Source of the DNA: Spirogloea muscicola
Lineage: Eukaryota; Streptophyta; Zygnematophyceae; Spirogloeales; Spirogloeaceae
Reading direction: 5' to 3'
Assembly: GCA_009602725.1 (NCBI GenBank)
Contig: WELB01000150.1
Coordinates: 96,607 to 123,923 of the forward strand
Length of the DNA: 27,317 nucleotides
Notes under the pieces: generated by a model
Databases searched by the model: none
The model's input: only the letters and a program-made list of their open reading frames with translations
Told to the model about the DNA's origin: nothing
Translations under genes and position numbers: made by a program
Part shown: positions 1,120-8,081 of the stretch, piece after piece
Layout of the letters: each line of letters starts with the position of its first letter
Numbering within the stretch: the first letter of the stretch is position 1

Positions 1120-1263
1120 GCATAGCTGTGAGGTTACGGCCCTTGGGACCTTGTCCGTTCTGTCTGGGCTGGCTTTTCACAGCCCCTGCCCCCTTTGGAC
1201 CTTGTTCACTCTTCTAGAAAGTGGCTCTCCCAAAGGGGGGCGAGGGCTGTGAACAGCCAGCCC
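1120..1263 (+). repeat. Tail module, long form, with a 33-bp inverted repeat
   Basis: The module runs from a leader resembling AGCTGTGAGGTT, through GGACCTTGTCCGTTCTGTCT, to a hairpin arm at 1166-1198. Bases 1230-1263 are a near-perfect reverse complement of that arm (about 30 of 34 positions by eye), leaving a loop of about 31 bases. The pair could be one long foldback element or two head-to-head tail copies. It lies directly upstream of the endonuclease fragment at 1290. Confidence 0.7.
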
Positions 1264-1289
1264 GGAAAAGAGAGAGAAAACATGTTCTG

Positions 1290-1922
1290 CGCTGTTCCCA
1301 CGGCGGAGAGCGGACAGCGGCCCATGACCATCTCCGGGATGCGATGCATGGCATCCTTGTGGAGGCTGGCTTCTCGGTGGCAGCCGAGAACTCTGCCGTC
1401 ATGCCGCTCCAGCAACGGGCCGACAGTCTCCACGCTCGTCGCGTGGACCTTGTGGCCACCCCACCAGCAGGCGGGCCACGTCTTCTCCTGGACGTCGTGA
1501 CCACCGACTCTTACGACCGCTCACATCCAACCGTGTGTGCCACCAAGGCTGGGTATGCGGTAGCCTGCTCTGCTCGGGCCAAGGAGCTAAAACACGCAGA
1601 TCACCCGCGGGAAGACGAGTTCTTCCCGCTCGCCATCGATACGCACGGGGCGCTGGGCGCTCGGTGGCTCGAGCTGCTCAACCAGCTCTCTCGTCACGCC
1701 ATTGCCCGCCGCTTCCATGGGGAGCCGGTGGACTCCCGTGCAGCAGGGTCGCTAGCGCAGGTGTACCGCATGCGCTTGGCCGTCTCGCAGCAGAGGTCTA
1801 TGGCCCGCGCGCTGCACCTGCGTGCAGGCAGAGCGCTCGCTGCTGCCTCTGGCTCTGGCCAGGGGACCCGCTTCCAGGAACCCAGTCTCTCTGACCTGAA
1901 GCTGCTTAGCAGGGGATACTGA
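1290..1922 (+). pseudogene. Non-LTR retroelement endonuclease domain, 5'-truncated (copy A)
   Basis: An open frame to TGA 1920-1922 encodes the C-terminal part of a reverse-transcriptase element. The order is HLRDAMHGIL, a conserved Glu, then RRVDLVAT, RLLLDVVTTD, KAGYAVACSARAKEL and FFPLAIDTHGALGARWLELL. This E...D...D(V)...K pattern is what I expect of the PD-(D/E)XK (restriction-like) endonuclease that follows the RT domain in some non-LTR elements. The RT domain itself is missing here, as is usual for 5'-truncated insertions. The frame appears to open inside the foldback repeat just upstream, so no genuine start codon belongs to it. The same protein is found in two further broken copies (2045-2560 and 2830-3725, minus). 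The RT part of what may be the same family is at 16355-19420. Family assignment is from motif memory, not a search. Confidence 0.7.
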
Positions 1923-2611: not shown

Positions 2612-2806
2612 CAGCGAGCTACTCCGACCTGATGTTGCTCACTCGCGGGTACTGAACTTCCCTCTGCATCGTCTTGTGTTTTGTAGTGTTTTGTGCCGTC
2701 TTCTTATTTTGTGGTGTAGTCCTTTGTCGTCACCTCTTTTTCTGGTTTTGGACATTGTCCATTCCTTTTGGGCTGGCTTTGCCAGCCCCTCTTCTCTATG
2801 GGAGAG
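2612..2806 (+). repeat. Tail-only repeat copy (empty-site homologue)
   Basis: The unit starts GCAGCGAGCTACTC, continues through ACTTCCCTCTGCATCGTC and TTTTGTAGTG, then GGACATTGTCC, and ends with the hairpin GGGCTGGC-ttt-GCCAGCCC and CTATGGGAGAGC. It is an inverted copy of 3350-3605. No endonuclease frame precedes it. CTTCC at 2657-2661 is the uninterrupted version of the site that carries an insertion at 3477-3556. Confidence 0.8.
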
Positions 2807-2829: not shown

Positions 2830-3376
2830 AAGGGCTCGCCCATTGAGGATAGGGGCTGGAAAAGCCTGCCCAAAAAAGAAGGAACAAAGTACGAGAAGGG
2901 GGCCAGGGGCAGCGCTAAGAAAAACAAGCACAACAAGAAACAAAGCAGCTACGTATTACTCAGTAACCCTTGCTAAGCAGCCACAGGTCAGAGAAGCTAG
3001 GCTCCTGGAAGTGGGTCCCCTGGCCAGAGCCAGAGGCAGCAGCGGGGGCTCTGCCGGCACGCAGGTGCAGCGCGCGGGCCATAGACCTCTGCAGCGAGAC
3101 GGCCAAGCGCATCCGGTACACCTGCGCTAGCGACCCGGCTACAGGAAATTCCACTGGCTCCCCATGGAAGTGGCGGACGATGGCGTGGCGGGCGAGCTGG
3201 TTGAGCAGCTCCAGCCACCGAGCGCCCAACGCCCCATGCGTGTCGATAGCCAGCGGGAAGAACTCGTCTTCCCGCGGATGATCAGCATATTTGAGCTTCT
3301 TAGCTCGAGCGGCGCAGGCGACCGCATACCCAGCCTTGATGAGAAGTGCGCGCCCATAGAGAAGAGGGGCTGGCAA
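2830..3376 (-). pseudogene. Non-LTR retroelement endonuclease, C-terminal part with 3' tail (copy B)
   Basis: The minus-strand frame 3376-2960 encodes KAGYAVACAARAKKL, FFPLAIDTHGALGARWLELL and the same Arg-rich C-terminus as copy A, ending KGY and a stop. About 85-90% of residues agree with copy A by eye. The 3' UTR and the tail hairpin (GGGCAGGCTTTTCCAGCCCC on minus) follow down to about 2830. The N-terminal part of this domain is found separately at 3606-3725, because a tail-type repeat of about 250 bases (3345-3605) interrupts the gene. Confidence 0.7.
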
Positions 3377-3605
3377 AGCCAGCCCAAAATAGAATGGACA
3401 ATGTCCAAAGCCAAAGAATGAGGAGCCGGAAAAAGGACTACACTACAAAACACTGCAGAACACAGACGATGCAGAGGGAAGCAAGCGCGGCCAGATTAAC
3501 TGGTGGCTGGGAGAGGCCAGCCCAAAAGAATGGACGAGGTCTGAAGGAGTTGGAAGCTCAGTACCCACGAGTGAGCGACATCAGGTCTGAGTAGCTCGCT
3601 GCCGT
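3345..3605 (-). repeat. Tail-type repeat inserted into endonuclease copy B
   Basis: The minus strand reads GCAGCGAGCTACTC at 3605 and ends with hairpin GGGCTGGC-ttt-GCCAGCCC and CTATGGG at about 3350. This is the inverted counterpart of 2612-2806. It separates two halves of a continuous protein (LTQPNV | KAGYAV), so it went in after copy B was in place. It contains its own extra insertion at 3482-3551. Confidence 0.75.
3477..3556 (-). mobile_element. 70-bp hairpin mini-insertion with 5-bp target-site duplication
   Basis: GGAAG at 3477-3481 is repeated at 3552-3556. The 70 bases between them contain a single tail module (minus strand: GTCCATTCTTTT then GGGCTGG-cctctc-CCAGCC). The homologous repeat at 2612-2806 has one CTTCC (complement of GGAAG) at 2657-2661 and no insert, with matching flanks on both sides (GATGCAGAGGGAAG, then TCAGTACC against the variant TTCAGTA). 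This is direct evidence of a short mobile unit and its empty site within one window. It could be a very short SINE-like or MITE-like element. Confidence 0.75.
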
Positions 3606-3725
3606 GATGGCACATTGGGCTGTGTGAGCGGTCGTATGCGTCTGTGCATCACGTCCAGGATAAGACGTGGCCCGCCGGCTTGTGGGGTGGCCACAAGAAG
3701 AAGTGCGCGCCCAAGGTCTACGCGA
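3606..3725 (-). pseudogene. Endonuclease copy B, N-terminal part of the domain
   Basis: The minus strand encodes VDLGRALLLVATPQAGG, then PRLILDVMHRRIRPLTQPNV. This corresponds to RRVDLVATPPAGG and PRLLLDVV in copy A, with a small insertion after VDL. The protein continues at 3376 after the inserted repeat. Confidence 0.6.
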
Positions 3726-3959: not shown

Positions 3960-4310
<351 letters not shown>

Positions 4311-4509: not shown

Positions 4510-7500
4510 ATGGCGGCCGCATCTGACACCAGAAGCTGCAAAGAAATGGTCGGGAGCAGCCAAGAGGCTGGGTACACGACCACGAGCTCGGTGCAGAAAG
4601 AGGGCCTTGACAGGCTTCGGAGCACGGTGCTCAACCTCTTGACCCCCCTCTCTCCTCTCCAGCCCTCGTGCTCTGTAGGAGCTTGCCATAGTGCTGGTGA
4701 CTGTGGGTCTGCGCTGCTTGGCCGTCAGCCGGCACCTGGCGCTGTGGCTCTGACAGGATCCCGTGGCGTCGACCGCGGCTCCAGCCCCGGAGGTCGCCCT
4801 GCCGGAGCAGGGCGGCAGCGCCGCCACATTGGCAGCAGCTTGTCCGCTGCCGGCCAAGCCGCTGCTGGGGCCGCTGGCAAGGACGCTGCAGCTCCTCATG
4901 GAGTTCACCGCCGCAGTCCTCCCATGTGCGGGCGGGGATGCCGCTGGCGTTCTGGCAGCCAGAGCGGGCGCGCCAGACGATGGCTGCCAGGGCAGCTGCG
5001 GCGGCAGCGGCGGCGGCGCCATCGGGTGGTCAGAGCCTCAAAGGCCGGCCAGCGGTAGCGGCGGTGATGGTGACCCGATGGCAGCGACGGAGGCGACGGC
5101 AGCAGCGGCGGAGATGGTGGAGCTGTGCGGAGCGGCGCCGCCTCCATTGCCGCTGCCTAGTCAGGCAGCGATCTGGGGCTCGGCTGCGGCGGGCAGCGCA
5201 CAGAGCCTCTTGCAGCGCCGCGCACTGGCCCGCCGGAACAGAGCCCGGCAGCTGCCGGCCGCAGCGACGGCGGCGACGGCAGTGGCGAGGAGTGCCAGAG
5301 TGTCGTTGCAGACTCGGCTGGCAGACAAGTCGTTGGCGCTTCTCGAGGACCTGGATGCAGCTACTGCAGCAGCGCTGGCAGTCACGGAGCGCAGAGAAGA
5401 GGGAGGGAGGCTCCCCAAGCGCCGGCAACGTCTGGAGACGGCCAGCCTGCCAGCTCTGCGGCGGGGCCCGCCCTCAGAGTTCCGCCAGCCCCTGCAGGCG
5501 AGGAAGACTGTCAAACTGCTGCTGCAGCTGCCGCCGCAGCCGCCGCGGCCGCAGACGCTACCGCTGCCGGCGCCGCCACCAAGTGGCAACGCTGTCGCCG
5601 GCCCCAACGACGAGGACGATGAGGAGGGGATTGAGGAGAGTCTGGCACGCCTGCTGGAGCCGCACGATGCCGCCGCCGTCGTCGCTGCCGCGACCGCCTC
5701 TGCTGCAATTGCAACTGAGGAGGCGGCCGTCGCCTCTGGCTGCAGCGACGGCGGCGGCAGTGGCGAGGCATCGGAGGAGGAGAGCGCGGCTGTGCTGCGC
5801 GCCCACTGCACGATACGCCTCTTCAATCACCTCCGACGCCGCGCACTGCAGGTGCACTCTGTTACAGAACCCGTGAATTTACATCCTGTTTAGGAAGCGC
5901 CGCTCGAGTGAGCAGCTTGAGAGCCGTGAACCCTTGACCCCCCACTGTGATTCTGGGACTGCATGAAAGCTTGGGTTGTCACGAAAAACTTCATTGCAAG
6001 CTATTGACCCTAACCCTAAATCCTCAACCCCTAAACCCTAATTCCTAAATCCACCGCTGCTGCGCTCAGTCGTTTGATCTGGTTGATCAAATGCGAAGCC
6101 GTCGTTCCTGGGTGTGGCGACAGGAGGAGGAGGCACGTGTGAGCGAGGAGGGTCGCGGGTCGCGCCGCGCCGACTTCAAGGCTGGCAAGGCTATGCGCGA
6201 GCGCGGCCTCATCTTCAACCCCAAGCCTGCAGTTGGCCACATCCCTGGTGAGCCGTCTGTGGCGCCGCCGCCGCCGTCATGGTGGTTGCCACTCCACCCC
6301 TCAGCTTCTGCGCAAGCTGGAGTGTTTAGTCCAGGACTAGGACTTGTGGTCTTGGGTGCCCATGTCTTCCATCGTAGGGGTTGAGCTGATGGCCTCGTGT
6401 GGCCTGTGGCGGCCGGGCGTGTTGGCTGGCCACAGGCATGCGGGTGGGGCATGCATTCTACAGCCGCCAGGAGATGATGATGGTGGGCATGCACCGGCAC
6501 CCGCAGGCGGGCGTCGACTGCATCGGCGGCAAGCGCAGCCCCTGGGGCCGGCACGTCGCGACCTGCATTGTGCTCTCAGGCGGTTACGAAGACAACTTGG
6601 ATGATGGCGAAGAGTTCTGGTATTCTGTGCATGGCAAGGATTCTGGCACGCACTCCATGCGTGGCAATGCTGCGCTTATTGGTTCCGCAGCGCTAGCCCT
6701 CCCTGTGCGTGTTGTCCGCCGGGTATTGACAAGCATCCTTCACATAGGCAGACATCAATTTTCTCCAATGCATGCTAAGCTTGGGAACTCATGACTTGCT
6801 TGCATCTTTTTATCATCCTTGAATCTACTCCAAAGTCTGCTTCTCCATAGGCCAGGTTAGCATCCTAGTAACATTCTCATCAATATTTGACCTGGTTTTT
6901 GAAACTGAAACCCTGCTCTCCGCCAGGCACCTGAACTGCACTCATACAGCGGCTCCGTGTACACGTATGACGGCTTCTACCGCGTTGAGGAGTGGCGTGC
7001 TACACCTGGCGCGAGTGGCCACGACGTGTATCGCTTCCGGCTGGCGCGCATGCCTGGCCAGGCACTGATTGCGCCAGGGCCCGTGAAAGGCAGCTACGCC
7101 CTCGGGACATCCATGAGTCAGGACTTGACCGCATCTGACCGCCCCGGCTTGCTCCTCGTCGACCTCTCAGGCGGTTGTGAGGCGGTGCCCATCTGCGTTG
7201 TGGATGACACGGCTGCCGCAGGAGGGCGACCACCGAGCGTGCCTCCAGTGTTCGAGTACCTCTCAAGGGTCTCGTACCCGGCAGCCATTGCTGCGACTCT
7301 GGCGCCAGCAGCAGGGTGCATCTGCAGTGGCCCCCGCGGCTGCGTGGACCCAGACGCTTGCGCATGTGCTGCGCGCAACGGCGGCACATTTCCTTACAAC
7401 TGCAACGGCAGCCTGGTGGAGGCCAGGGCGCTGGTGTACGAGTGCGGGCCCGCTTGCACATGCCCGCCGACCTGCCACAACCGCGTAGCTCAGCGCGGGC

Positions 7501-8081
7501 TGACACGCCGCCTGGAGGTTTTCCGCACGGCGAGCGGCAAAGGGTGGGGTGCGCGCTCATGGGATGCGATCGCAGCTGGCGACTTCCTCTGCGAATACAC
7601 GGGTTGCTTTCTGGAGGACGCTGACGCTGAGTGCCTCCTCGGGCGCGACGACTACCTGTTCGACCTCGACTGCTTCAAGAATGTGACCGAGCGGTGGAGT
7701 GCAGGCGATGGCCTCCTTCTTGCGGACCTTGGGGACAGCAAGCTGTCCGTTGACAAGGGTGGTGGCGAGAGGTCGGCAGTCTCCTCGGAGCGGCTGATGC
7801 GGGACGTGCACTTCTGTCTGGACGCTGCCAAGACGGGCAATGTCGCACGCTACCTCAACCACAGCTGCGCTCCCAACCTGTTTGTGCAGTGCGTGCTATT
7901 TGACCACCACGATGTGCGTGCGCCGCACGTCTGTCTTTTTGCCATGGAGCACGTTCCGCCGCTGGTTGAGCTCACATACGACTACAACTATGCTGTCGGC
8001 ACCGTGCGCAATGAGGATGGCAGTGTCAAGCGCATTTCGTGCCTCTGTGGTGCTCCCGGCTGCCGCAAGCGCCTCCTCTAG
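4510..8081 (+). CDS. SUVH-type histone H3 lysine-9 methyltransferase (SRA-SET)
   Basis: The product is a chromatin enzyme that reads methylated DNA through its SRA domain and methylates H3K9 through its SET domain. Well-supported exons are 4757-5851, 6124-6247, 6436-6722 and 6927-8081; all introns are GT-AG with matching phases. Conserved order: LRRRALQ joined to EEEARV, then RADFKAGKAM; SRA domain (GMRVGHAFY, SGGYEDNLDDG, RGNAAL, YTYDGFYRV); Cys-rich pre-SET (CICSGPRGC to CPPTCHNR); SET (GKGWGARSWD, CEYTG, YLNHSCAPNLF, ELTYDYNY); post-SET CLCGAPGCRKRLL. The catalytic motifs are intact, so it should be active, unlike SUVH2/9-type members. The N-terminal 300 or so residues are Ala/acid-rich low complexity. 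Start: the frame is open back to TGA 4751-4753 with no ATG before 4898. Codon use looks coding from 4757, so I prefer an upstream exon 4510-4674 with ATG in a strong context (GGCATGGCGG) and an 82-base intron, giving about 941 residues. Starting at 4898 would give 839. Confidence 0.88.
6008..6050. promoter_or_regulatory. Telomere-like CCCTAAA array with a telo-box, in a SUVH intron
   Basis: The plus strand reads CCCTAACCCTAAATCC, then CCCCTAAACCCTAATTCC, a degenerate run of plant-type telomere units. AAACCCTAA (6033-6041) is an exact telo-box. It lies in the intron 5852-6123 of the SUVH gene. It is too short and degenerate to be a chromosome end. Confidence 0.8.

Follow-up and report, generated by a model that had tools for sequence, protein, structure and literature searches.

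What is the 70-base segment that lies between two copies of the pentamer GGAAG in one of two related repeats on contig WELB01000150.1 of Spirogloea muscicola, and how did it get there? The window considered here is the whole 27,317-nucleotide stretch of this contig from position 96,607 to 123,923. The first-pass annotation treated the segment as a small unit, essentially a tail hairpin module, that moved or was copied as a discrete element shorter than ordinary short interspersed nuclear elements (SINEs). The segment is instead the last 70-74 nucleotides (nt) of the 3' untranslated region (3'UTR) of a non-LTR (long terminal repeat) retrotransposon, a long interspersed nuclear element (LINE) denoted LINE A. 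It is an ordinary 5'-truncated LINE copy of the restriction-like endonuclease (RLE) class with a short target site duplication, that is, an insertion of a known kind and not a new class. Almost certainly, this severely truncated copy was left by target-primed reverse transcription that stopped early. The features involved are:

3477..3481, no strand: left GGAAG copy of the 5-bp target site duplication, by direct reading; single in the empty site
3482..3551, minus strand: insert, the last ~70 nt of the LINE A 3'UTR
3552..3556, no strand: right GGAAG copy of the 5-bp target site duplication; the alignment to L087 reaches 3554
3342..3604, minus strand: LINE B 3' fragment (frame end, stop, 3'UTR), host of the insert
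2612..2806, plus strand: paralogous LINE B 3' fragment with the empty site

The insert as a LINE A tail

Read in minus-strand sense, LINE A ends in the window with ...GGCCGCGCTTG at 3482, and its 5' truncation falls at 3551-3554. Across 74 bases counted from 3481, the insert shows a 97% match to the 3'UTR of L087, where an open frame of 921 amino acids (aa), encoding a reverse transcriptase and a predicted R2-type endonuclease domain, is followed by a 107-nt 3'UTR that terminates in the sequence of the insert. The four LINE-type frames of the window itself have no Pfam families at E values up to 0.1, and the parent was therefore reached through longer copies; the window also contains no Rfam matches at gathering scores. 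An alignment of five 3' ends, those of LINE A, LINE B, LINE C, a fourth LINE family (D) and L088, reveals a shared core with 32 invariant columns out of 80, so that the tail module is common to several LINE families.

The 23-bp terminus of LINE A is present in 859 exact copies in the genome. Copies were picked by this terminus, and 90 were read from the first 100 places in list order. Measured from the 3' end, they extend over 23 bp, which is the length of the selection pattern, to 1,015 bp (median 85), with 78 of the 90 below 250 bp (some of these cut by N), and the longer ones run into the frame for the reverse transcriptase and endonuclease. LINE A resumes past another insertion in 12 copies, 12 are cut short by N or by the stretch end, 7 abut the end of another LINE and 59 break cleanly, with 58 clean breaks counted after a duplicate was dropped. 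In L030, L080, L086, L089, L091, L118 and L125, LINE A runs into stretches of N, which are assembly gaps or withheld sequence, and the extents are lower bounds. The median of the clean breaks is 83.5 bp. The LINE A copies thus combine a common 3' end with a variable 5' end, as 5'-truncated LINEs do; the 5' boundary is not common among the copies in this sample, and hence there is no 70-bp unit.

These extents do not support the claim of a discrete mobile element, given that only the 3' edge is common and the longer copies contain a LINE frame. Of the shared boundaries and flanking duplications by which the first-pass annotation proposed to recognize such an element, the 3' boundary and frequent duplications were found, but not a shared 5' boundary. 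It is accordingly very improbable that the insert represents a discrete non-autonomous element of ~70 bp, a mini-SINE moving via the LINE A tail. Such an element would have a LINE 3' end in common with its partner, like tail-sharing SINEs, and would account for the many short copies (25 of the 58 clean breaks are at 74 bp or less). A SINE, however, is fixed at both ends and has a head of non-LINE origin. Here, 2 of the 58 clean breaks are no more than 3 bp away from that of the window, the LINE matches all 74 bases with no foreign head, and a tRNA-gene scan of the window yields no genes. The variable 5' ends together with the LINE A identity throughout speak against a novel class of tiny elements.

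The empty site and the target site duplications

Direct reading places the 70 bases of the insert (3482-3551) between GGAAG at 3477-3481 and GGAAG at 3552-3556, whereas the paralogue at 2612-2806 has a single CTTCC, at 2657-2661. MAFFT, applied to the two window repeats alone, misplaces the gap, and an explicit flank join was used instead. The flanks joined with one GGAAG comprise 85 bases, which align to the reverse complement of 2612-2700 with nine mismatches and one internal single-base gap. The filled copy therefore differs from the empty one by a precise 75-bp addition, and the original description of a flanked segment with an empty paralogue is borne out. Genome-wide, the exact empty junction has 574 copies and the filled left junction 2, with none for the reversed-pattern controls; because of this disparity, the empty site is the ancestral state. 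Among the 42 matches listed for 2612-2806, the window's own included, 40 cross the site without the 75-bp interruption and the other two are short pieces that end before it, although the ranking favours uninterrupted copies. The insertion site is also visible in 12 related stretches (L060-L066), as CTTCCC in 10, TTTCCC in one and CTTCCA in one, and none of the 12 carries the insert. It is this empty site, and not the 5-bp repeat alone, that proves the insertion. The claim that a small unit moved thus holds to the extent that there was a separate insertion with a 5-bp duplication, but not in its reference to a discrete element shorter than SINEs.

The converse event, loss of 75 bp from the 2612-2806 copy by recombination between GGAAG repeats, with the longer form ancestral, can be given hardly any credence: the segment does have a 5-bp repeat at both edges, as a short-repeat deletion requires, but the filled form is the rare one and the segment is the end of a different LINE family. 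A fusion of, or template switch between, LINE A and LINE B RNAs, or a later rearrangement, in place of a separate insertion is equally far-fetched, although LINE ends often abut LINE A breaks (14 of 91 copies examined, the window included), since LINE B is in register to the left and right of the insert, where a single pentamer is duplicated, and the exact empty site with the duplicated flank was found.

The last base of the left GGAAG may be part of the LINE A end, and at the 5' junction there is microhomology of up to 3 nt, the GGA of the right GGAAG fitting LINE A as well; such short homologies at junctions are common. In L129 (G000:C156:275640-276000), a LINE A tail occupies this CTTCC site in a second, sequence-divergent LINE B copy; the LINE A stretch there is shorter than that of the window and perhaps represents an independent hit.

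Duplications are frequent among the LINE A copies. The count covers 77 copies, with 13 of the 90 dropped (12 because an edge met N or the limit of the fetched sequence, and one as a duplicate). Exact flanking repeats of at least 6 bp are found in 38 of the 77, compared with 8.2 expected from all mismatched pairs, and repeats of at least 8 bp in 16, compared with 0.74; among short clean copies (80 bp or less), 13 of 26 have repeats of at least 7 bp, compared with 0.92 expected. Repeats at odd offsets (e.g., L036 and L057), which are probably due to chance, were retained, and the mismatched-pair control handles them alike. The copies overall therefore bear the target site duplications of 5'-truncated LINEs, and the window copy has its 5-bp repeat, at the low end of the lengths, together with the empty site. 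In this genome, even LINE insertions of only ~30-50 bp can have clear duplications (L053 and L032); in L053, about 30 bp of LINE A are bracketed by copies of GGATTCGG.

On the sense strand past the LINE A 3' end, T is found in 89% of 88 distinct flanks (one duplicate and one flank with N excluded from the 90), and the next few bases are mostly C or T. This short pyrimidine preference, with which the window site TTCCCTC agrees, is the only feature that the 88 flanks have in common, and it may reflect a target preference, a short tail, or both. In L046, L055, L058, L070, L075 and L098, LINE A meets the tail of family D at almost one and the same position, 30-34 bp short of the LINE A end; three of these copies (L055, L058 and L075) continue with LINE A beyond family D inserts of differing length, and a 22-bp pattern spanning the junction of the two has 22 exact copies. 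These recurrent junctions suggest that the LINE A tail contains a favoured target.

Several observations weigh against the truncated-LINE interpretation. The 5-bp repeat of the window is within chance, as mismatched flank pairs predict repeats of at least 5 bp in 25 of the 77 copies. No repeat of at least 6 bp flanks 39 of the 77 copies, so that many edges must be older, rearranged or blurred. The sample of 90 out of 859 follows list order and is non-random, the selection misses copies whose 3' end has changed or been lost, and N or a stretch end truncates 12 of the 90 extents. Finally, the case for the proposed tail hairpin module is weak and gives no ground for calling the hairpin selected. 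Two small hairpins are predicted in the 70-mer, but their stability is no better than that of shuffled sequences: 37 of 200 shuffles are at least as stable (z -0.79), and for the whole 3'UTR, 82 of 200 shuffles are as stable (z -0.15).

The parent element, the common 3' end, the variable 5' ends, the duplications and the empty site are all observed, and the known pathway of RLE LINEs offers the biochemical steps that could connect them. The LINE A protein would nick a pyrimidine-rich site in the LINE B 3'UTR, and the nick would prime reverse transcription from the 3' end of LINE A RNA. Reverse transcription would halt after about 70-74 nt, and a cut in the second strand, 5 bp off, would give rise to the GGAAG duplication. 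The truncated-LINE reading accounts for the 70-bp insert, and a new class of elements is not needed. In genomes of this kind, LINE tails may likewise account for some of the small indels that distinguish repeat copies, and these would supply precise empty and filled sites to order LINE activity. It is unlikely that the usual LINE A product in this genome is an ultrashort tag from the 3' end, about 30-100 bp long and with a duplication of its own. Were this the case, and if the tags were made in trans from short fragments of the RNA 3' end, as opposed to enzyme drop-off from full-length RNA, they would make up a large class of micro-retrocopies overlooked by repeat annotation.

The LINE A protein and its relatives

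The reverse transcriptase domain is readily detected (RVT_1, E = 1.5e-14 in L087 and 1.2e-14 in L088), and a YADD motif was spotted by eye in the LINE frame. With the 921-aa frame as the query, phmmer retrieves three R2 proteins at E values of 0.026-0.071 along with unrelated entries at 0.066 and 0.23, and the 307-aa C-terminal part has no matches in PDB at E values up to 10. The phmmer search being not decisive, the R2-type assignment was decided by fold comparison, in which the best matches of the predicted model of the C-terminal PD-(D/E)XK-type endonuclease are R2 proteins; the mean predicted local distance difference test score (pLDDT) of the model is 60.9, with ten-residue blocks of residues 81-240 ranging from 53 to 88. 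The KERKY sequence of L087 fits the KX2KY motif that PMC5678591 assigns to this endonuclease, and column K167 is nearly invariant in an alignment of 13 sequences. That paper (PMC5678591) also describes a CCHC knuckle upstream of the endonuclease with the spacing CX2-3CX7-8HX4C. L087 and L088 have the C, C, H and C residues, by eye, but with the unlike spacing CX1CX12HX3C. No Pfam hit to an apurinic-type endonuclease is found in the 1,521-aa frame of L088, although a missing hit is weak evidence.

On the strength of the reverse transcriptase domain and the predicted fold, LINE A is very probably a dispersed RLE-class (R2-type) non-LTR retrotransposon. It is not R2 proper, which is confined to a single site in the 28S rRNA gene, given that 88 of the 90 copies have distinct flanks and the window copy sits in LINE B. 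No paper on the LINE A family was among the titles listed in the literature searches. The closest parallels are the R2 and R2-like copies of Blattella germanica, which similarly combine an RLE-class protein and a retained 3' end with variable 5' truncation (PMC7650587). The 5'-truncated R2 copies of varied length are ascribed there to incomplete first-strand synthesis, and R2-like elements placed randomly in the genome are also described (PMC7650587). Unlike R2 of this cockroach, LINE A, in a genome of 153 Mb, lacks a single target site, and its copies have short duplications and are mostly shorter than 250 bp. The HERO clade, of which many non-specific families are mentioned in PMC4640811, resembles LINE A, by description, in belonging to the RLE class and lacking a strict target. 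Another likeness is to the RandI/Dualen LINEs of green algae and their SINEX partners, in which some algal LINE 3' ends are common to short elements; a point of difference is that the RandI families tabulated there have 3' repeats, for example (ATT)n (PMC3747384). Dualen, as summarized in PMC4640811, encodes both endonuclease types, unlike L088 as judged, weakly, from the missing apurinic-type hit.

Nested LINEs and other features of the window

The LINE B fragment that hosts the insert itself interrupts a third element, LINE C, as follows:

2963..3336, minus strand: downstream half of the LINE C endonuclease frame (65% identity to the L087 protein over 127 columns)
3337..3341, no strand: TGATG (CATCA in minus-strand reading), left copy of a pentamer that the LINE B insertion may have duplicated
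3605..3609, no strand: TGATG, possible right copy of the same duplication
3610..3720, minus strand: upstream half of the interrupted LINE C frame (by-eye comparison with window 1480-1620)
1221..1922, plus strand: LINE C-type C-terminal frame with the endonuclease domain (63% identity to L087 over 216 columns)

LINE C at 1221-1922 is uninterrupted, as seen at 1480-1620, whereas at 2963-3720 it is split by LINE B. The segment 2963-3720 is thus a nest of three LINEs, the A tail within the B tail within the C endonuclease frame. The TGATG/CATCA pair comprises five bases only and could be due to chance. In the paralogue at 2612-2806, the LINE B frame ends with LLTRGY and a TGA stop codon (2653-2655); one base past this stop starts the CTTCC of which the filled copy has two (all by eye).

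Elsewhere in the window, the frame at 6957-8078 is a predicted histone methyltransferase-like gene: it matches the SET domain at E = 2e-17 and Pre-SET at 3.2e-17, and SRA in part, slightly below the cut-off. Positions 1-90 contain an A run and then GGC repeats, and positions 4030-4160 a long CT repeat with one N.
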